Below, piece by piece: positions 3 to 32,778 of a DNA stretch of 33,596 nt. The position numbers and the translations under genes were made by a program. The notes below the pieces were generated by a model. It ran no database searches. It saw only the letters and a list, made by a program, of their open reading frames with translations, and had not been told where the DNA came from. Positions within the stretch are counted from its first letter, which is position 1; the number at the start of each line of letters is the position of its first letter. Source of the stretch: an uncultured bacterium (lineage in GTDB: Bacteria; Vulcanimicrobiota; Vulcanimicrobiia; Vulcanimicrobiales; Vulcanimicrobiaceae); the NCBI GenBank assembly GCA_903829325.1, contig CAIKPM010000015.1, positions 1 through 33,596 on the forward strand. Reading direction: 5' to 3'.

Positions 3-857
3 GCAAACCTCGCAATGAGTGAGGGTATGCCTGGATTATCCCAAGATCAAATGGGCGACGCAAGACGGTGTCAAAGCGACGCTTACGGATATACAGCCTA
101 TGCATGTGGAGTATGTGTAAACCCGGCGACTATCACGGTTGGCGCTGATAACAATATTTGGTCTGCCTCTTTAAACAGCACTACCGATATATTTAACATC
201 ACCACCCATGGAACAGTTCACACATTTGGCGCACCAGGAACTCATGTAGACGATATGACGCTCGGTCCCGATGGAAAAGTCTGGGTTTCTACTGCAGGAG
301 GTTCAGGTGGCGTGATTGCCTCTATTAGCACAGCTGGGAAGCTCTCCAAGTACGCTCTTGCGAATGGGGGATATGGCTACAATATCACGGTCGGATCAGA
401 CGGAAATTTGTGGTATTCTGATAGGGTCAATAGTTTGGTAGGCATGGTGACAACATCGGGGAGCTTTGGAAAAACCATCAGTATTGCCAATAATGGGTGG
501 ACAGTGAGTACTCCCGATCCGATGACTAGCGGGCGCGATGGAAACCTTTGGCTAGTCAGAGGTGCTATCGATGGCGTTACTAAGATCACGTTGGCTGGGG
601 GTGTGAGCATTATTCCGCTTCAAGCCGGCGCGCGACCCAGCGGCGTCGCTACTGGTCCCGACAGCAATCTGTGGATCACCGAGTTTGCCCAAAACACTAT
701 CGCTCGCGTGACGCCAGGCGGTACGGTTACGGAATGGACGGGCAGTGCGATCGGGATTAATTCAAGCGCGTCCCCTATCGGCATTACGACTGGGCCCGAT
801 GGCAATATTTGGTTTGCGGAAACTGGCTCAAATAGTATCGGGAAATTTGTGCTCTGA
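3..857 (+). CDS. Streptogramin-lyase-like (Vgb/NHL) beta-propeller protein, 5' partial
   Basis: The reading frame is open to the left edge, so the gene probably starts outside the window; the first ATG inside is at 15. Six blade motifs of the form GxDxNxW are visible (for example VGADNNIW, LGPDGKVW, VGSDGNLW, SGRDGNLW, TGPDSNLW, TGPDGNIW), spaced roughly 40 to 50 residues apart. This is the repeat of virginiamycin B lyase and related beta-propellers. Most members of this large family are uncharacterised; I cannot assign lyase activity because catalytic residues cannot be placed without an alignment. A signal peptide, if present, would be off-window. The 3' end overlaps the end of the convergent acetate kinase gene by 30 bases. 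Confidence 0.8.
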   Translation, partial: ANLAMSEGMPGLSQDQMGDARRCQSDAYGYTAYACGVCVNPATITVGADNNIWSASLNSTTDIFNITTHGTVHTFGAPGTHVDDMTLGPDGKVWVSTAGGSGGVIASISTAGKLSKYALANGGYGYNITVGSDGNLWYSDRVNSLVGMVTTSGSFGKTISIANNGWTVSTPDPMTSGRDGNLWLVRGAIDGVTKITLAGGVSIIPLQAGARPSGVATGPDSNLWITEFAQNTIARVTPGGTVTEWTGSAIGINSSASPIGITTGPDGNIWFAETGSNSIGKFVL

Positions 858-1946
858 GACTGCGTTAGCGATTTGGCGCGCCAGTTGCCAATTTTCGCGT
901 GCGTTGACGATTACCACCGGTGTCCCGCTCGTGGAGCCGTGGATGCAGCCTTCGTGGTTGCCCGCGTTCGTGCTGGGATCGAGCGAGAGTCCGTAGCCAA
1001 GTCCCCCCTCGAGGATGCGCTCGCGAATCGTCGCGGCGTGCTCACCGATGCCACCCGTGAACACGAGCAGATCAAGCCCGCCCAAGCTCGCGATACACGC
1101 ACCGATGCTCGCCCGAACCCGCCAGCAAAAGACATCGAGCGCGAGCCGCGCGCTTGCTTCAGGCGTGTCCAGCAGCGTGCGGACATCGCCACTTATGCCG
1201 GAGATGCCGAGTAAACCTGATTCGCGCTCGAGCATGGTGTCAAGCTCGCTGACCGTCATGCCTTGTTTGAGCAAATGCACGAGCAAGCCGGGATCAACCG
1301 CGCCACTGCGGGTTGCCATCGGCACGCCATCAAGCGGAGTAAAACCCATCGTGGTATCGATGCTCTCCCCATTGCGGATTGCGCACAGCGAAGAGCCGCC
1401 CCCTAAGTGAGCGGTAATGATCCGCGCGTTCGTGATGTCGATGCCCGCCAGGGCTGCACCGCGAGAGGCAGCGTATTCGTGGCTGAGACCGTGGTACCCG
1501 ATGCGCCGCAAACCTTGCTCGGTGAGCTTGCGCGGCAGCGCGTAGGTTTGTGCGGGGGGAGGCAGGGTGCGATGAAACGCGCTATCGGCAACGGCGTATT
1601 GCCTGATCGTGGGCTGGAGGATGCTGACCAACCCAACCAAGTTCAGTGCGGGGTGGCTGTGGAGAGGGGCGTCGTCTGCACCGTGTTGGAGGGCCCTGAC
1701 GCTCGCTGCGTCGAGCGCTTGCACCGCAAGGAAGCTGGCCGGGGTGTAGACCATGCGATGGGCAACGGCGTCCGCTGGCGTCGCAAAACAACGCGAAAAA
1801 AGCTCCGCTGCATCGCTGACGCGCGCATCTTCGCTAAAGCTCGGCGGCGGGGGCTGGGCGAGCGGCGGGATGGGCGTGGCTAGATCGTAGCATTCGACTT
1901 TGAGCGAGGTCGAGCCGGCGTTGATTGTTACGATGCGCAGGGCCAT
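828..1946 (-). CDS. ackA: Acetate kinase
   Basis: Interconverts acetyl-phosphate + ADP and acetate + ATP in the cytosol. Family signatures are all present: the N-terminal phosphate-binding [19 protein letters not shown] with the conserved His, the glycine-rich [10 protein letters not shown], the substrate loop around [17 protein letters not shown], and the C-terminal [15 protein letters not shown]. At 372 residues it is slightly shorter than the usual 395 to 405. The frame extends to a TTG at 1952, but the ATG at 1946 gives the usual N-terminus ([12 protein letters not shown]) and is preferred. The start lies inside the last codons of the upstream phosphoketolase gene, so translation is probably coupled. 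The pair makes ATP from sugar phosphates through acetyl-phosphate. The 3' end overlaps the convergent beta-propeller gene. Confidence 0.95.
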
Positions 1947-4318
1947 GTCCAATGCTCAATTTCTGGTGGATCTACACCATGACGATGTGCATAAGCGATG
2001 CTCTCGATGATGCAATTTTTCATCCGTTCCTTGAGATACGCGCCTTTGGCTTGCAATCCCGGAACGACATCGATCACCGACATCACAAGGTTATACCGAT
2101 CGACTTTATTGAGGATTTTGAGCTCCAATGGAGTGTTGATATTGCCTTTTTCTTGGTAGCCACATACGTGTAAATTGTTATGGTTGTGACGGCGATAGGT
2201 CAATTTATGAATGAGCCAAGGATATGCGTGAAAATTAAAAATGATCGGTTTATCTACGGTGAATAAACTGTCAAAATCGCGATCGCTCAAGCCGTGCGGA
2301 TGTTGTGACGCTGGTTGCAAACGAAAGAGATCGACGACATTCACGAAACGAATCTTCAGCTCGGGCAATTCCTTGCGGAGGATGTCAACCGCAGCAAGCG
2401 ATTCCATGGTGGGGATATCGCCGGCAGTCGCCATAACGACATCGGGCTCTGCGCCCGAGTCGGTACTGGCCCATTCCCAAATCCCAATGCCCTTGGTGCA
2501 GTGGTCGATGGCCGTATCCATATCGAGATATTGTAGATGCGGTTGTTTGTCCGCAACAATCACATTAATATAATCAGTGCTGCGCAGACAATGATCGGCA
2601 ACGCTCAGTAAACAATTGGCATCAGGCGGTAAATAAATACGGGTAATTTCAGGGCTTTTGTTCGCAACAAGATCTAAAAATCCAGGATCTTGATGGGTGA
2701 AACCGTTGTGATCTTGGCGCCAGACCAGTGAGGTGATAAAGAGGTTGAGCGAAGAAATGGGTGCGCGCCAGCGAACTTCTTTTTTGCTTTTTTCTAGCCA
2801 CTTGGCGTGTTGATTGAACATCGAATCAATGACGTGGACAAACGACTCATAGGTCGCAAAAAGCCCGTGGCGACCGGTTAAAATATATCCTTCGAGCCAG
2901 CCCTCTAGGGTTGTTTCGCTTAAAATTTCCATGACGCGTCCATCGACGGCGAGTTCCCCGCCATCGGCGTCTTGGGGAATCATCTCCGCGAGCCACGTTT
3001 TTTTGGTTGCTTCATAGAGAGCCTCGAGCCGATTCGAAGCGGTTTCATCGGGACCAAAAACGCGAAACGAGTGCATATTCGCGCGCATCGTGTCGCGCAG
3101 AAAACCCGCCATGATCGCGGCGGGCGAGGTAAACGTGGTACCGGGCTGGGTGAGCGTGACGGCATACTCGCGAAAATCCGGCAATTGGAGCGGGACGCGG
3201 AGTACTCCGCCGTTGGCATGCGGGTTGGCGCTCATTCGGCGCGCGTTACGTGGGGCGAGCGCTGCGAGATCTGGACGCAATGCGCCGGTTTCGGTGAAGA
3301 GTTCCTCAGGGCGATAACTGCGCATCCACGTTTCGAGGAGTTGCAGATGTTGCGGATTAGTTTGGACATTGCCGATCGGCACTTGATGCGAGCGCCACGA
3401 GCCTTCGAGCGCATGCCCGTCTATTTCTTTGGGCGCGGTCCAGCCCTTCGGTGAGCGTAGCACGATCATCGGCCACATCGGTCGAGTGGCAGTGCCGCTT
3501 TGGCGCGCTGCTGCCTGTGCCTCGCGAATATCGCTCAGGCACTGCTCTAAGGCCGCCGCCATCGTGTGGTGCATATACGTGGGGTCGCTACCTTCGACAA
3601 AGTACGGATTCCAGCCGTAGCCCCGCAGTAATTGATCGAGTTCTTCATGCGAGATCCGCGAGAGGACGCTTGGATTGGCGATCTTGTAGCCGTTGAGGTG
3701 CAAAATCGGCAAGACGGCGCCATCGCGAATGGGGTTCAGAAATTTGTTGCTGTGCCACGATGCTGCAAGCGGACCCGTTTCTGCTTCGCCGTCACCGATC
3801 ACGACCGAAACGATGAGGTCGGGGTTATCGAACGCTGCCCCAAAAGCGTGAGAAAGGCTGTAGCCGAGTTCCCCACCCTCATGAATCGAACCGGGGGTTT
3901 CAGGCGTGCAGTGGCTCCCGATGCCTCCGGGAAACGAAAATTGTTGGAAAAAACGCTGTAAACCAACGAGATCTTGGCTTTTTTCGGGATAAATCTCGCT
4001 GTAGGTACCTTCGAGATAGGCATGTGCCAAGACCGCCGGCGCACCGTGGCCTGGTCCCGAAAGGTAGATCATATTCAGATCGTGGCTGGTGATCAGCCGA
4101 TTTAAATGCAGCCAGACGAACGTTTGGCCTGGGTCCGAGCCGAAGTGCCCCAACAACCGATTCTTGATATGTTCCGGCTTGAGTGGCATCCGCAAGAGCG
4201 GATTATCGCAGAGGTAGATCATCCCCACACAGAGGTAATTGGCCGCGCGCCAATAGGCATCGAGTAGGGTGACTTCTTCGTCACTCAGGCTGTCTGGGGC
4301 GAGTGTCCGGGTACTCAT
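1928..4318 (-). CDS. xfp: Xylulose-5-phosphate/fructose-6-phosphate phosphoketolase
   Basis: Thiamine-diphosphate enzyme that splits xylulose-5-P and/or fructose-6-P with phosphate into acetyl-phosphate plus glyceraldehyde-3-P or erythrose-4-P. The 796-residue length is normal for the family. Diagnostic segments include [12 protein letters not shown] (from residue 87), [20 protein letters not shown], the ThDP/Mg motif GDGEAETGP (175-183) followed by [16 protein letters not shown], and later [12 protein letters not shown] and [12 protein letters not shown]. Substrate preference cannot be read from sequence. It sits directly upstream of acetate kinase with overlapping ends, the usual partner that turns acetyl-phosphate into ATP. 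The start ATG at 4318 gives a normal N-terminus. No strong promoter stands out in the 55 bases between it and the next gene, which is on the same strand. Confidence 0.96.
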
Positions 4319-4373: not shown

Positions 4374-4853
4374 CTACCAGCGGTGTCCGTAATGGGGATA
4401 GTGCCAGCCGTAGCCGCCATGCCACCACGCCGAGCTACCCAGCAGAAACCCCAACTCAGCGCCGGTGGTGTATGCGTACCACGGTTGGCTGTCGTAGTAC
4501 GGTATCGCACCATACATCGTGTACGGCGTATCTATCTCGTTAGCGGAAAAATATGACCCCGAATTATGGCCGTAGACGGTTGCGACCATGCCTGACTGTA
4601 GTTGCAGGCCACGAGGGTTAATGATCGTGCCCGGATGCAGATGCACGACATCGACAAAGCCGCGGTCGTCACTGAGGCGCAGGTCGTAGCCACCGTCGAA
4701 GGAGGTGATCCGACCGGTCAGGCGGTCGTCTTCGCTGGCAGACGCATACGAAGGGGCTGTTCGGGCGTAGGAAGGGACGTTTTGGGCCTGCGCCGCGAGA
4801 GGCAGCGCTAGGAGTAGTATTCCAGCTGTGGCGAGTAGGGCACGCTTGAACAT
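4374..4853 (-). CDS. Secreted small protein, Tyr/Trp/His-rich C-terminus, unknown function
   Basis: 159 residues. The N-terminus is a clear Sec signal peptide: MFKRALLATAG, a hydrophobic core and a likely cleavage after AAQAQ or AQA near residue 23. The middle (about 43 to 110) looks like a small all-beta domain: LTGRITSFDGGYDLRLSDDR, then a VHLHPGTIINPRGLQLQSG segment and VATVYGHN, which may be an OB-like barrel of the DUF5666 kind; that is inference. The tail is rich in Tyr, Trp, His and Gly (SSAWWHGGYGWHYPHYGHRW), compatible with metal binding or surface attachment. I do not recognise a characterised homologue. It is divergent from the S9-type gene at 5042, sharing a 188-base intergenic region. 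Confidence 0.75.
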   Translation of the reverse strand: MFKRALLATAGILLLALPLAAQAQNVPSYARTAPSYASASEDDRLTGRITSFDGGYDLRLSDDRGFVDVVHLHPGTIINPRGLQLQSGMVATVYGHNSGSYFSANEIDTPYTMYGAIPYYDSQPWYAYTTGAELGFLLGSSAWWHGGYGWHYPHYGHRW

Positions 4854-5041
4854 CGAGATTCCCCCAATACGGATACCTGCTCATACTACGACAAATGTAT
4901 GAGACCGTCCTTAGATCTCTAGGTGGGTCCTTTTATCCATGCCAGGTTAAGTTGAGGTCATTCCTTATACCGGCAGCTTCTTTCCCAGGGCGCTCGGTCG
5001 TATAGTGAGGGGTATAGTCACAGTCATGAGGAAGGCCGAAA
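4854..5041. promoter_or_regulatory. Divergent intergenic region with tandem TATAGT boxes
   Basis: This stretch separates two divergently transcribed genes and should hold both promoters. On the plus strand TATAGT occurs twice, at 5001-5006 and 5013-5018, 12 bases apart, at a suitable distance ahead of the TTG start at 5042; matching -35 boxes are weak. No tRNA or obvious riboswitch fold is visible. Confidence 0.35.
5029..5035 (+). promoter_or_regulatory. Ribosome binding site deciding a TTG start
   Basis: AGGAAGG lies six bases before the TTG at 5042. It supports TTG rather than a later ATG as the start of the S9-type protein. An ATG at 5026 is in another frame. Confidence 0.7.
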
Positions 5042-6889
5042 TTGAGCCATCAAGATGGTCGTGCGCCCGAGCGTGTTCCCTTGGCGACGCTTTTTGCGAA
5101 TGCTACCCATACGCTTCCCCGGATTGCGCCTGATGGGAAATGTCTGGCGTATCTCTCCGATCAGTACGGGATTTATAATATTTGGACGCAGCAGCTTGCG
5201 ACCGGTGCAGAACGTCAGGTGACTTTTGCGACCGTCTCGATCAAGGATTATCATTGGCTGCCCGATGGTTCTGGTTTTGCCTTTGTGCTAGATCAGGGCG
5301 GCGATGAAAATGATCATATGTATCGTTACGATTTTGCGAGTGGAGTCTGCTCCAAAATTTGCGCGTACGATGGAGTGAGATGTCAATTTCTCAGCGTTAA
5401 TTATCGGCATCCCGAGGCGATTCTCCTGACGGCAAATTTGCGGGATCAAAGCGTTTTCGATGTCTATCGTTATGACCTCAAAAAAGCGAGCCTCAGTTGT
5501 GTCGCGCAAAATCCTGGTGATGTGATTTCATGGGTAGCTGACCGCAATTTGGTCGTTCGCTTAGCAACTTCGTGGAGTGACGCCGGTGGGATGCTCCTCA
5601 GTTTGATAGAGCACGGCGAATATATTGATCTTGTGGCGTGCACCCATGATGACACCTTACAGCCGATTGAATTTTTAGCCGATGACGATTTATTATTGCT
5701 GTCATCGGTAGGTGCCGAAATGACACGGCTCCTAAAGGTCAATGTGTTTGCCGATGTCAGCACCGTGCTCTATGAACACCCACAGTTTGATATTGTCGAT
5801 GTTGCGACCGCATTAGATGGATCGCACGTGCAATTTGTCGCAACTCAGCACGACCAATTCATGTGGCATAGTCTTGACGCAGCATCGGCACGTCATATCG
5901 CGGCCTTAAACCAACAGATCCCCGGTATGTGGGCAGTCGTAAGCCGCGACGCGAGCGATCAACGCTGGATTATTCGCTGCGAAGCCGATACTGCGCCCGT
6001 GAGCTATTATTTCTACGATGTTGCAGATTGTCGCAGCCGTTTGTTGTTTTGCGAATATCCGGAATTAGAGCATTATACTTTTGCGCAGATGAAGGCGATT
6101 TCTTTTGAAGCTCGTGACGGGCTGACCTTGCACGGGTATTTTACGGCGGCTCTTTCCAGCGAAGATGATCAGCCGGCTCCTCTGATGCTTTTGGTGCATG
6201 ATGGGCCCTGGTCACGCGATCATTGGGGTTGGCAACCGGAAGTGCAGTGGCTCGTGAATCGCGGCTACTCGGTGCTCCAGGTAAACTTCCGTGGATCGAG
6301 TGGATTTGGCAAGCGCGTGCTCAATGCGGGCGATCGGGAATGGGGCGGTAAAATGCACCTCGATATTCTCGATGCGAAAGCGTGGGCGGTTGCCCAGGGG
6401 CTCGCTCTCGAGTCGCGTTGTGGCATTTACGGCTTCAACTATGGCGGATTCGAAGTGCTCACCGCACTGAGCCAATCGCCCGATAGCTTTGCTTGTGGGG
6501 TTGCTTTGTCAGCTCCAGCGAGCTTGTTGACGTTTCTAGAAGCCGCGCCGGCCTATTGGACCCCGCAGCAAGCGATGCTCAGAGCACGGATAGGCGACAT
6601 CGTGAGCGAGCGGCAGTTTTTGGAAGCACGCTCGCCGCTGAGCCACGTCGAGCAGATTATTGCGCCGTTATTACTTGGTCAGGGCGCGAACGATCCGCAA
6701 GTGAAGCTCCATGAAGTTGAGGCCATCGTCGATAGGATGCACGATGAACGCAAAGAGGTACGTTATGTGCTTTTCTACGATGAAGGCCACGGACTCCGCA
6801 AACCCCATAATCGCCTACGCTTTTATGAGATCGCCGAAGGGTTCTTGGAGCAAAATCTTCCGAGTGTACTTATGCCAGTCTATTCGTAG
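5042..6889 (+). CDS. S9 prolyl-oligopeptidase family protein with nucleophile Ser replaced by Asn (probable pseudo-peptidase)
   Basis: 615 residues. Residues 1 to about 340 form a TolB/DPP-like beta-propeller (for example APDGKCLAYLSDQYGIYNIW, LPDGSGFAFVLD). Residues about 345 to 610 form the alpha/beta-hydrolase domain: LQVNFRGSSGFGKRV, DREWGGKMHLDILDA, GQGANDPQV and FYDEGHGLRKPHNRLRFY. Asp551 and His583 of the triad are in place. The nucleophile elbow, normally GxSxGG, reads GFNYGG, with Asn466 (codon AAC) where Ser is expected, and the oxyanion motif HGGP reads HDGP (Asp387). Peptidase activity is therefore doubtful. There is no signal peptide, so it is probably cytosolic. It starts with TTG behind a good Shine-Dalgarno site and ends 18 bases from the convergent atpC. 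Confidence 0.88.
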   Translation: MSHQDGRAPERVPLATLFANATHTLPRIAPDGKCLAYLSDQYGIYNIWTQQLATGAERQVTFATVSIKDYHWLPDGSGFAFVLDQGGDENDHMYRYDFASGVCSKICAYDGVRCQFLSVNYRHPEAILLTANLRDQSVFDVYRYDLKKASLSCVAQNPGDVISWVADRNLVVRLATSWSDAGGMLLSLIEHGEYIDLVACTHDDTLQPIEFLADDDLLLLSSVGAEMTRLLKVNVFADVSTVLYEHPQFDIVDVATALDGSHVQFVATQHDQFMWHSLDAASARHIAALNQQIPGMWAVVSRDASDQRWIIRCEADTAPVSYYFYDVADCRSRLLFCEYPELEHYTFAQMKAISFEARDGLTLHGYFTAALSSEDDQPAPLMLLVHDGPWSRDHWGWQPEVQWLVNRGYSVLQVNFRGSSGFGKRVLNAGDREWGGKMHLDILDAKAWAVAQGLALESRCGIYGFNYGGFEVLTALSQSPDSFACGVALSAPASLLTFLEAAPAYWTPQQAMLRARIGDIVSERQFLEARSPLSHVEQIIAPLLLGQGANDPQVKLHEVEAIVDRMHDERKEVRYVLFYDEGHGLRKPHNRLRFYEIAEGFLEQNLPSVLMPVYS

Positions 6890-6907: not shown

Positions 6908-7341
6908 CTAGTTTGCCAGCATCGATGAGTGACTGGCGACCGTAAGCTTGGCTTGAGCAAAATCAATCTTTTCTTGCTCGCGATGATACAGCGTCAGATC
7001 GCCGTTGGCTGCCTGCTGGCGTTTGGTCGCCGCTTCTAAGTCGGCCTTCGCACTGTCTACGTCGATCTGGTTCGGTTCGAAGGCTGCATCGACGATGACC
7101 ACCACCCGATTGGGCAGTGCTTGCAGGAAGCCACTGCTCGTGGCTAATTCTAAGCGGCGCTGTGTGTCCCCATCGACGAGGTTAATCCGCAGGACGCCTG
7201 GCTTGAGAGCGGTGAGGTAGGGAGCGTGCTGCGGCAAGATTCCGACCTCACCCTCCGCGCCAGGTGCTATCACTAGTTCCGCTTCGCTATCGCAGACGAT
7301 CGCGGTTGGGGTAATCAGCGCAAACGGAATAGTTTTTGCCA

Positions 7342-7342
<1 letters not shown>
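6908..7342 (-). CDS. atpC: F1Fo ATP synthase epsilon subunit
   Basis: Last gene of the ATP synthase operon; part of the F1 central stalk and a brake on ATP hydrolysis. The N-terminal beta-sandwich is typical: FALITPTAIVCDSEAELVIA, then GAEGEVGILPQHAPYLTALKPG. The C-terminal helical hairpin (about 90 to 140) is present, with ATKRQQAANGDLTLYHREQE. The 144-residue length is normal. Its ATG overlaps the atpD stop codon (TAATG), so translation is likely coupled. No clear intrinsic terminator is seen in the 18 bases before the convergent S9-type gene. Confidence 0.95.
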
Positions 7343-20214: not shown

Positions 20215-21771
20215 GTGAAACGTATCGTTGGCGTACTTCTTTTTGGGGCCGGTGCCATTGCACTCGCCCGCCCGCAGTTAGCCTCGGCATTCGAGAAACC
20301 GCTCTCCTTGCCGACTCCCGTGCCGATTACCCTAGCTCAGTCTTCAGTTGTTTTAGCGCAGGGGGCACAAGCTTCGGTTCAGGCGTTTGGTATTGCGGGG
20401 ACGTTCCGTGTCACCGTGGATCATCCGCAAGTGGTCGAGGCTGTGCCTGATCAAGCTGCCCGGCGGGTTTTGCTCTCGGCGAAGGGCCTGGGCAACAGCG
20501 TGCTCACCCTCACCGATGCACGCGGGATGAGCGCCAGCTTCCCCGTGCTCGTCGAAGCGTCAGCTGGTACTGTCGCTGCCAGCGCGGCGGTCAAGATCAC
20601 CGGTGCTCCGGCTTCGCCCGGGTTTGTCGCTGGGCAAGCCGCCCATGCTGCAGCGATGGCTGCGCGAGCTCTCCCTGGTGCGCAGGTGCGAGTTGTCTCG
20701 GAGGAACTTCGGGCGCCGCAACTCGACCTCGAAGAAATCACCGAAGTTGCGGTTCCGGTGCGGATCGAAGGGCCTGGGCTATACCCGGTTGAGGGCGTGA
20801 CGCGTGTGCGAGTGGAAAATTTTGCCCAGCCGCAAGTTCACCCCAGCTCTTTGCTGGTGAGTGATTTCCCCGAGCGTTTGCACGAAGATGGGTTGCTGTA
20901 CACAACACAATTACAGCCACGCGATCCCACACGCATCTTGTTCTATCACGCCAATCCGCACGGGCAACCGCCTCGCTGGATTGTCTTGCAGCTAACCAAT
21001 CACAGTAATAGCCCTGCAACCGTGATGGTTATTGATGGTCACGGCGGTGCCAACCCGAACGAGATGCTGGTGGGGCACCTCGCTACCAAACGTTTCTTAG
21101 TGCACCAGCTTCAGAACGAGGGCGTACTTGTCGAGGTCCCGGCGCAGTCTACGGTGGCGGTCGTCAGTCGGTCGTTGCCGCCTGATACGGTGATCAGCGA
21201 TTTGCTGCAGCTCAACGAGATTGAAGGAGATCCGCTTGCGCTTGCGCTCATCGCTGAGCAAACACCCGCGGCACAGCCGAATCTCGATACCATGGGCGCT
21301 TGGTTGACTGACCGGGTGCGGCACGCGCGAGGGCGTTATCCTATTCCTGAATTATTCTACGAAGCCACGTACGATACGCAGGAGCCCGAGCTCAGTATTC
21401 CGATCGGTCAATTGCCGTTGCCGAATTTACGCCAAGGGATCGCGCTCGATGGTGATTATGGCGTGCTCTTTTCTGTGAACGCGACCTTACTCAATACGAG
21501 TAACAGCCCAGCCGAGATCGCGTTGTATGCTACGCCGCGTGGCGGACGGGCGGCTGGTACGTTTCTGATCGATCATACTCTGATCCAAGCTCATGCGTTG
21601 CCGGCGTTCTCGCACTATAAATTGAAGCAGTACACCGTGCCGGCGCATGGCTTCCTTAATACGAGTGTTGTCACGATGCCCGAAGGCGGCTCGTCGTATC
21701 CTTTAGATCTCATTTTTGCTCCTGATGATGGTAGCCCCAACCCCGGTGCTCCCGGCTCTCTCATGTATTGA
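20215..21771 (+). CDS. Secreted protein with pilus/secretin-like N-terminal domain, unknown function
   Basis: 518 residues, starting at GTG 20215 with a signal peptide (KRIVGVLLFGAGAIALA, likely cleavage near ASAF). Residues about 45 to 115 (TFRVTVDHPQVVEAVPDQ, then VLLSAKGLGNSVLTLTDARG) fit the small beta domain found at the N-terminus of CpaC/RcpA-type pilus proteins and secretins. After an Ala-rich stretch the remaining 330 residues look all-beta with no recognised family; notable strings are RILFYHANPHGQPPRWIV and VMVIDGHGGANPNEMLVGHL. There is no secretin pore motif, membrane helix or anchor beyond the signal. It follows recQ by 44 bases on the same strand but is functionally unrelated. 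A periplasmic or surface location is likely. Confidence 0.75.
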   Translation: MKRIVGVLLFGAGAIALARPQLASAFEKPLSLPTPVPITLAQSSVVLAQGAQASVQAFGIAGTFRVTVDHPQVVEAVPDQAARRVLLSAKGLGNSVLTLTDARGMSASFPVLVEASAGTVAASAAVKITGAPASPGFVAGQAAHAAAMAARALPGAQVRVVSEELRAPQLDLEEITEVAVPVRIEGPGLYPVEGVTRVRVENFAQPQVHPSSLLVSDFPERLHEDGLLYTTQLQPRDPTRILFYHANPHGQPPRWIVLQLTNHSNSPATVMVIDGHGGANPNEMLVGHLATKRFLVHQLQNEGVLVEVPAQSTVAVVSRSLPPDTVISDLLQLNEIEGDPLALALIAEQTPAAQPNLDTMGAWLTDRVRHARGRYPIPELFYEATYDTQEPELSIPIGQLPLPNLRQGIALDGDYGVLFSVNATLLNTSNSPAEIALYATPRGGRAAGTFLIDHTLIQAHALPAFSHYKLKQYTVPAHGFLNTSVVTMPEGGSSYPLDLIFAPDDGSPNPGAPGSLMY

Positions 21772-30528: not shown

Positions 30529-32778
30529 ATGTCATTTCCAATCGGTATGGTGCCTAATTCGTTCGCTTCGAATATCCCGGGGGTGCCTGGTGAAAACCAG
30601 ATATTTCCTAACGAGTCAGGAGCGGTGCTCCCTCCAGCGTTTGATGGGGCGTACGAGCCAATCGGCCAGCTTGGGCTCAATCCACAGTCGACTGTGATGT
30701 ATGGCATGCCCCAGAGCGAAGCATCCGCTTGGCCGTCGACCACACCGGGTTGGCCCTTAGACGCTTCCTTGGGTGACCCACTCGCGCAGCAGCCTTCGAG
30801 TGAAGAAGAGTTGATGCGGGTGATGGGTGGCATGCAGCCACAGTCTGGCCAGTACGAGGCGCCGGGCATGAATCAATACCAAGATCCCACTTGGAATCCG
30901 CTGTTTGCATCGGCGCAGTCAGCGAATGGGGTGCCATTCCCCGGCGTGCCGGTTACGGCAAATCAGAATAATGCTACGCAGAATACTACGGCCGGAAATA
31001 TTGCTGGTTGGGGTAATCAAACGAGTGGCAGTAATGACACTGGCAGTGGTTCAGGGATTCAAACCATGGGGAATTCAAATACGTCCTATGGCAACAGCCT
31101 GACTATTACCGGAAACAATAATCAGACAGCGGGCAATAACGACACGGTGTCGGGCAATGCGAATACCATCAGTGGTTCAGCCAATCGTGTGAGTGGCAGT
31201 AGTAATTCCGTTTCGAATAACAACGATGTGGTGGTTGGTTCGAATGATACTGTTACCGGACAGGGTGATCAAGTGTACGCCAATGGCCTGACTGTTTCTG
31301 CCAGTAATGTTGCTGTGTTTACCGACGCGAGCGGTGACGTATATACGGTAGCTGCGGATGGCTCATGGACCGAGACGACAAGTGGTGGTGCCTCAGTTGC
31401 CAGCGGTGGGGCAAATACTGCTAAAGCCGATGGGATTCTGACCGGCTTGGCGATTGCCGCAAATCAGGCTTCAAAGGGCGGCCAGATGTGGTCGGGAACT
31501 GGATTCGGAGTAACGCCGAATGCAGGTAATTCTGCAACCGTGAATGCCGCAAACAGCGTAGAGGGGAGCATGAATAGTGTTGTGGGGAGCCAGAATACTG
31601 TTTCTGGCAACGCGAATACTGTTTCTGGTAGCTTTAACAGTGTTACGGGGAGTGCGGATTCTGTATTTGGTCAGATGAATACTGTGGCTGCGAGTGGCGA
31701 TACGGTATATGGGTCAAGTCTGACCGTTCACATTTCTAGTGCGACAGTATTTGGTGATAATCATGGCAATGCATATGTCATGGATAATACTTCTAGTCAA
31801 TGGGTGCTTGTAAGTCATAATGGTGCAGGAAGTCAAATCGCATCGGGCACGAGTGCGACCGCCTCAATGGCTTCCTTGCTTGCATATGACTCAGCATCTG
31901 CGCATGTTGGAGGAGCAAGTCAACAAACAGTTAGCCAATTTGCGTCAGTTGCTGGAGGTCCGGCACCTGCTGCTGGCAGCACTGCCGGCAATGTCTATTG
32001 GGAGTATAACAACGGCACTCCCTTTGTTTTGCTCCAGGCGGCCTCTGGATCAGGAACGATTAATATTGATGCTGCTGGAGATGTTACCTGTGAAAATGGC
32101 TCGAGCACTTTATCATCTGGGGAAAATATCTCAAGCTTCTTGCAACAGGTCAGTACCGGCTCTGCCACAAGCTCGACAATTTCTGCAGAGGTTACTCTCC
32201 TGGCCTCACAAACTGGCTACACTTCTTCGGCGGTAAGCCAGCTTTTAGCAACCGCGTATCTTATGAAAGAGAATGGTGCCAATACGCCGACTGTTTCCCA
32301 GGTGCAAAGCGCTGCAAGTGATTTTAATGCCAACGCCGATGCACTAGCTCGTGCTGCTGTTAATGGTACGGTTTCAAATGATCAATTGAATGATTTTAAT
32401 GGGCTTGATTCGCTTATTACAAGCAGTAATGACGGGCAAGTGACTGCGACTGTCAACCAAAGAGGAGCGGCTGTTGATATTTTTGGTAATGGCGTACGGC
32501 AAAATATTGATGGTGCAGATTTTAATTATGGCACTGGCTATGGTGACAGTTGGCACGTTCAGGGTGGTGCGACGGGAGATACCAGTCGGATAAATACCGA
32601 GCTGACTTGGTTGCAGAGTAATGGTTTGACATCTGATCAGGCTCGTCAGACTCTGGCAGCTGATTATATCTATCAAAATCAAGGGGCTTCGGTCAGTGAT
32701 ATCTCGTCAACGTATGGTATCTCAAGTGCTGAGGTTATCGATCTAATGCAGCAAATGAATATTACCCCAGCTTCGTAA
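30529..32778 (+). CDS. Large heptad-repeat, beta-helix-like protein of unknown function
   Basis: 749 residues with no signal peptide or membrane helix. Residues 1-150 are Pro/Gln/Gly-rich. Residues 181-250 are ten uninterrupted seven-residue repeats (consensus G-N/S-x-N/D-T/S-V-S/T, for example GNANTIS GSANRVS) and 339-401 are nine more. Each block is followed by a similar module: GLTVSASNVAVFTDASGDVY and SLTVHISSATVFGDNHGNAY. The C-terminus (about 535 to 749) is helical and also repeats itself. The short-repeat pattern recalls YadA-type heads, beta-rolls and ice-binding solenoids, but no anchor domain is present. The whole is Asn/Ser/Thr-rich with few Lys and no Cys in the repeats. How it would be exported is unknown. 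The start is ATG 30529. Confidence 0.85.
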   Translation: MSFPIGMVPNSFASNIPGVPGENQIFPNESGAVLPPAFDGAYEPIGQLGLNPQSTVMYGMPQSEASAWPSTTPGWPLDASLGDPLAQQPSSEEELMRVMGGMQPQSGQYEAPGMNQYQDPTWNPLFASAQSANGVPFPGVPVTANQNNATQNTTAGNIAGWGNQTSGSNDTGSGSGIQTMGNSNTSYGNSLTITGNNNQTAGNNDTVSGNANTISGSANRVSGSSNSVSNNNDVVVGSNDTVTGQGDQVYANGLTVSASNVAVFTDASGDVYTVAADGSWTETTSGGASVASGGANTAKADGILTGLAIAANQASKGGQMWSGTGFGVTPNAGNSATVNAANSVEGSMNSVVGSQNTVSGNANTVSGSFNSVTGSADSVFGQMNTVAASGDTVYGSSLTVHISSATVFGDNHGNAYVMDNTSSQWVLVSHNGAGSQIASGTSATASMASLLAYDSASAHVGGASQQTVSQFASVAGGPAPAAGSTAGNVYWEYNNGTPFVLLQAASGSGTINIDAAGDVTCENGSSTLSSGENISSFLQQVSTGSATSSTISAEVTLLASQTGYTSSAVSQLLATAYLMKENGANTPTVSQVQSAASDFNANADALARAAVNGTVSNDQLNDFNGLDSLITSSNDGQVTATVNQRGAAVDIFGNGVRQNIDGADFNYGTGYGDSWHVQGGATGDTSRINTELTWLQSNGLTSDQARQTLAADYIYQNQGASVSDISSTYGISSAEVIDLMQQMNITPAS
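31069..31278 (+). repeat. Heptad repeat block 1 (10 x 21 bp)
   Basis: Ten successive 21-base units encode residues 181-250 of the 749-residue protein. The phase is exact throughout. At the DNA level the units have diverged, so this is an old protein repeat rather than a recent slippage array. Confidence 0.85.
31543..31731 (+). repeat. Heptad repeat block 2 (9 x 21 bp)
   Basis: Nine 21-base units encode residues 339-401 of the same protein in the same phase (for example GSQNTVS GNANTVS GSFNSVT). Here the DNA is more alike between units (AATACTGTTTCTGG appears twice in succession), suggesting more recent duplication than in block 1. Confidence 0.8.

Follow-up and report, generated by a model that had tools for sequence, protein, structure and literature searches.

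A gene of the S9 peptidase family, on the plus strand of the window (the whole 33,596-nucleotide stretch of DNA analysed here), probably encodes a genuine, lineage-restricted pseudopeptidase, a functional but non-catalytic protein; we put the probability of this reading at roughly 0.62. The observations behind it are changes in the active-site sequence, an intact frame, a paralogue in the same genome, a long branch and a confident predicted fold, and from them we infer loss of activity, expression and a binding role.

The gene and its reading frame

The gene and its two domains are placed as follows, the domain bounds being our own reading.

5042-6889, plus strand: putative pseudopeptidase gene of the S9 family, encoding 615 aa from a TTG start
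5081-6070, plus strand: beta-propeller domain (approximately residues 14-343), from the strand pattern of the predicted model and PD40/TolB-like matches
6071-6886, plus strand: alpha/beta-hydrolase domain (approximately residues 344-615), from the Peptidase_S9 match and the predicted model

A preliminary description of this DNA had reported an intact, full-length frame, and the open reading frame indeed runs for 615 codons with no internal stop. Directly 5' of its TTG start, at about 5028-5035, lies the ribosome-binding-like sequence GAGGAAGG. Both sequence and fold assign the product to the S9 family: residues 399-606 match Pfam Peptidase_S9 (PF00326) at 123 bits (E 1.5e-35, curated cut-off 22.6), and the model has an N-terminal propeller. 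A score so far above the cut-off would earn the protein the label "peptidase", which calls for caution in annotation. The gene stands alone, between a divergent small gene (4374-4853, minus strand) and a convergent ATP synthase epsilon gene (6908-7342, minus strand), with no operon partner at the locus to hint at its role. In the region immediately upstream we found no sigma-70-like promoter, and matches there were not above those in shuffled sequence.

Three altered residues in the active site

The residues that bear on catalysis, identified from the alignment of relatives, are these.

6197-6199, plus strand: His386 (CAT), first residue of HDGP
6200-6202, plus strand: Asp387 (GAT), replacing the first Gly of HGGP
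6437-6439, plus strand: Asn466 (AAC), replacing the nucleophile Ser
6692-6694, plus strand: Asp551 (GAT), catalytic acid, kept
6698-6700, plus strand: Gln553 (CAA), replacing the Arg equivalent to Arg526 of the Aeropyrum pernix enzyme
6788-6790, plus strand: His583 (CAC), catalytic base, kept

The HGGP motif has become His386-Asp387-Gly388-Pro389, and the GxSYGG elbow reads GFNYGG, with Asn466 in place of the serine. The Ser-Asp-His triad of an active S9 peptidase is in this way reduced to Asp551 and His583, both present in the open reading frame and the alignment. These features had all been picked out in the preliminary description and hold up against the family; the change of Arg553 to Gln, a third alteration of the active site, had been overlooked.

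None of 139 relatives carries Asn at position 466: Ser occupies it in 138, and the one exception falls beyond its own homologous stretch. Among the 114 aligned relatives, Ser466 and Gly387 are each found in 113, with the same single exception (L112) at both; the L112 match ends at query residue 463 (E 1.7e-64) and its later columns are not homologous. A further 25, more distant relatives have Ser in 25 cases and the first Gly in 24. Every one of the 100 full-length relatives has Ser466, Gly387 and Arg553, and all three are altered in the S9 protein. This count comes from 115 rows less 10 of 540 aa or fewer and 4 of 30% identity or less, with 100 relatives counted, among which L005 and L075 have identical sequences, so that one protein enters the count twice. 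As L005 comes from a genome of the same phylum and L075 from a contig named as Eremiobacterota, the phylum is probably Vulcanimicrobiota (Eremiobacterota). Because Ser466 is near-universal in the relatives surveyed, we take Asn466, on these alignments, to be a real departure from the family and not the random variation of a poorly constrained position.

The other two positions are less strict. One relative, L121 (G124:C20:4061-5863), has HSGP for HGGP and yet an intact Ser-Asp-His triad, so the first Gly of the motif is not strictly needed. Absolute invariance of Arg553 was likewise rejected, two distant S9 proteins (L129 and L132) lacking the Arg with the triad intact. L129 (G051:C1:673838-675628) also has a single TAA stop inside its matched frame, its triad residues otherwise being present, and is possibly a recent pseudogene or an error. 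Given these three proteins, the changes at Arg553 and Gly387 alone are no proof of inactivity, and the case for an inactive S9 protein, as read from the alignment, is one of serine loss. The serine-peptidase mechanism needs its nucleophile; in the absence of that residue the mechanism is unavailable to the S9 protein, which would have neither serine peptidase nor esterase function.

Comparison with acylaminoacyl peptidases

Sequence comparison places acylaminoacyl peptidases, along with other S9 peptidases, as the closest solved relatives, 5l8s coming first (E 1.3e-38). Matched over its whole length, the predicted structure aligns with 5l8s from Sporosarcina psychrophila (Z 35.5, rmsd 3.2 over 584 residues) and with 1ve6 from A. 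pernix (Z 33.8, rmsd 3.4 over 556). With these S9C enzymes the protein shares the two-domain arrangement of propeller and hydrolase, the catalytic Asp and His, and Gly388 and Tyr467 at the oxyanion site; it differs from them in the replacement of Ser by Asn, of the Gly368 equivalent by Asp and of the Arg526 equivalent by Gln. The pairings with the A. pernix enzyme (ApAAP) are Asp387/Gly368, Gly388/Gly369, Tyr467/Tyr446 and Gln553/Arg526, as counted by us on the alignment, the numbering of ApAAP and that of the 2qzp chain differing by 20 residues.

These pairings qualify the earlier claim that the oxyanion motif is lost. The available text of PMC4394528 assigns the ApAAP oxyanion hole to Ser445, Tyr446 and Gly369, and the last two are retained here as Tyr467 and Gly388. 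Loss of the oxyanion hole proper was rejected on this ground: by alignment, HDGP alters the first Gly (the Gly368 equivalent, now Asp387), whereas the Gly whose amide serves the oxyanion is kept. The third change touches a residue with two structural duties. In ApAAP, Arg526 (Asp+2) keeps the catalytic Asp524 in place and links the two domains through a salt bridge to Glu88; this bridge is termed invariant in the family, and mutation of either Arg526 or Glu88 harms activity (PMC3338720, available text). The S9 protein has Gln553 in its place and has kept Glu89, in the conserved GGDEN stretch, which by position is a candidate for the Glu88 partner.

An intact paralogue in the same genome

The best non-self match by E-value in the genome searches is a second S9 gene of the same genome, L002 (C30:29431-31215, a 615-aa open reading frame; E 7.2e-165). 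The two proteins have equal length, the same domains and 43% identity, but L002 retains GGSYGG, HGGP and NDPRV intact. The frame of an adjoining MFS transporter gene overlaps the L002 start. The two genes come out as sisters (SH-aLRT 93) in a 101-row tree, with end branches of 2.17 for the S9 gene, the longest of all, against 0.62 for L002 and a median of 0.28. A more careful tree of 40 rows, picked by us from the 101, gives support of 88/94 and end branches of 2.11 and 0.48, respectively. Support for the sister placement is fair, not decisive, long branches being hard to place. Among conserved columns of the hydrolase domain (conserved, here and below, meaning at 90% or more of rows), L002 has changed at 2/99 and the S9 gene at 19/100.

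From sequence comparison, the S9 gene looks like a fast-evolving, lineage-specific duplicate of the intact L002. The simplest account is a duplication within the lineage with one copy retained as an enzyme; possibly, instead, the S9 gene is an older sister that has been lost in relatives. Such an origin does not sit with the "conserved" pseudo-enzyme proposed in the preliminary description, since Asn is absent from all 139 homologues and the branch is very long. No clade of Asn-bearing orthologues appeared among the rows read from 198 relatives, 99 family genomes, 149 phylum genomes and the genome contigs (best 80 of 82 relatives), sets that overlap and include no genome of the same genus. A shared Asn in close orthologues would be the main mark of a pseudo-enzyme under selection, and the genomes searched yielded no such orthologue. 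Viral contigs gave no match to the S9 protein. Of plasmid records, 43 matched, all at less than 60% identity.

Constraint on the diverged copy

Early decay is the most serious alternative to a functional pseudopeptidase, although we consider it appreciably less probable. Under this explanation a redundant duplicate has lost its function and is becoming a pseudogene, its frame simply not yet broken. The extent and distribution of change are what such a gene would show. Within the hydrolase domain none of the other rows among the 101 is as much changed as the S9 gene (19/100; the next has 15/100), and within the propeller, at the 90% threshold, it comes second (10/35); the two domains do not differ from each other (p 0.24). 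A hot spot of change at the active site was looked for and rejected, the catalytic motifs being no denser in changed conserved columns (5/22) than the rest of the hydrolase domain (14/78; p 0.76). A spread of this kind fits general relaxation as well as it fits targeted loss. The relatives searched also yielded no orthologue.

Against decay stands above all the frame. When L002 was evolved neutrally to 55% identity in 200 simulated runs, the mean number of stops was 11.7 and the minimum 5; the S9 gene, whose branch carries approximately 2 changes per site, has 0 in 615 codons. As every neutral run acquired at least 5 stops, selection must have held the frame for most of the branch, though the most recent part could still be unconstrained. 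Comparison with L002 gives pN 0.40 and pS 0.76, a ratio below 1 in which pS is saturated, and 106/135 of the conserved columns are kept. The AlphaFold model is also confident (mean pLDDT 91.9, pTM 0.91) and places residue 466 at the elbow, between a strand (460-465) and a helix (467-478). The prediction drew on 51 Ser-bearing relatives, so it indicates that such a sequence can be accommodated by the fold and does not in itself show that the protein folds. A lost catalytic residue, an intact frame and a confidently predicted fold together are what is expected of a pseudoenzyme, and with the further loss of Arg553 they lend support to that part of the preliminary description.

A different kind of alternative, which we regard as very unlikely, is that catalysis has been altered and not abolished, with Asn466 or Asp387 working together with Asp551 and His583, for example once Asn466 has been deamidated to Asp. 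Asp551, His583, Gly388 and Tyr467 are all in place for such a reaction, and alpha/beta-hydrolases with Asp nucleophiles exist, among them the haloalkane dehalogenases and epoxide hydrolases. A dehalogenase with its nucleophile mutated to Asn reportedly undergoes deamidation, although our literature search gave no such report. Asp387, for its part, would be expected to repel the oxyanion, and Arg553, whose equivalent fixes the catalytic acid in ApAAP, is gone. Moreover, mammalian DPP6, with Asp at the nucleophile position, is inactive as a peptidase (PMC4350108, available text). That the Asn is only apparent, the product of a sequencing or assembly error in this metagenome-assembled contig, is hardly credible: an AGC Ser codon is one transition away from the Asn466 codon, but Asp387, Gln553, Phe470, Glu471 and Phe465 would also have to be errors, and the combination of three separate active-site changes with divergence across an entire protein whose frame is intact argues against it.

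Possible function and known pseudopeptidases

For a functional pseudopeptidase, the preferred reading, we propose the following course of events. An acylaminoacyl-peptidase-like S9 gene of the L002 type would have duplicated, one copy staying a normal enzyme. In the other, Asn would have taken the place of the nucleophile Ser, the acidic Asp that of a Gly next to the oxyanion hole, and Gln that of the Arg that bridges the domains and positions the catalytic Asp, while the full-length frame and the two-domain fold were kept. The product might then capture peptides in the cavity between propeller and hydrolase without cleaving them or, alternatively, assemble with its active paralogue L002 and modulate it.

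A role as a non-catalytic peptide-binding protein or hetero-oligomer partner is probable by analogy with mammalian DPP6 and DPP10, and it is because of this analogy that we adopt it. These S9B proteins have Asp (DPP6) and Gly (DPP10) at the nucleophile site and modulate Kv4 channels, and restoring the Ser does not bring activity back (PMC4350108, available text). Like the S9 protein they have the S9 fold with the nucleophile replaced, and DPP10 also keeps the Asp-His pair. They differ in being membrane glycoproteins, whereas the protein described here is bacterial and S9C-like, carries Asn and has no known partner. The narrower proposal that it is a dedicated regulatory subunit, forming a hetero-oligomer with L002 and regulating, as an inactive partner, the active enzyme, we regard as doubtful; dead paralogues do control enzymes in trypanosomes (PMC5201418 and PMC3663545, available text).

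Inactive homologues of serine proteases have already been counted in prokaryotes: a 2008 survey listed 42 putative cases among 966 proteins from five families, and the available part of that source does not show S9 among them (PMC2605481). A 2014 survey of prokaryotic prolyl oligopeptidases describes the triad residues as highly conserved (PMC4522959, available text). Our literature search found no bacterial S9 pseudopeptidase with Asn, which is no proof of absence. S9 pseudopeptidases as such are already known, and what is added here is a bacterial, S9C-like one with Asn. Its value lies in a clean natural experiment, a single genome holding both an intact S9 peptidase and a sister that lacks the nucleophile and two more active-site residues but keeps its predicted fold. 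If expressed and selected, the S9 protein would be a bacterial counterpart of DPP6 and DPP10, and a place to ask whether dead copies regulate live S9 enzymes.

Other features of the window

Several other genes of the window deserve mention. At 831-4318 a phosphoketolase gene is followed by an acetate kinase gene on the same strand; the 374-aa open reading frame of the latter has no match to the kinase model before model position 84, and it may therefore lack a normal N-terminal region or have an unusual one. A 518-aa open reading frame at 20215-21771, adjoining a RecQ-like helicase gene, has no Pfam match at E 0.001. The 280-aa protein encoded at 15-857 scores 131 bits against Vgb_lyase, the model of the virginiamycin B lyase family (cut-off 50), but falls far under the NCBIfam cut-offs for true Vgb. 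Finally, the repeats of a 749-aa open reading frame at 30529-32778 score 44.9 bits against LbR_Ice_bind, a beta-roll model for grass antifreeze protein (cut-off 30), and its product is possibly an ice-binding or adhesin-like protein.
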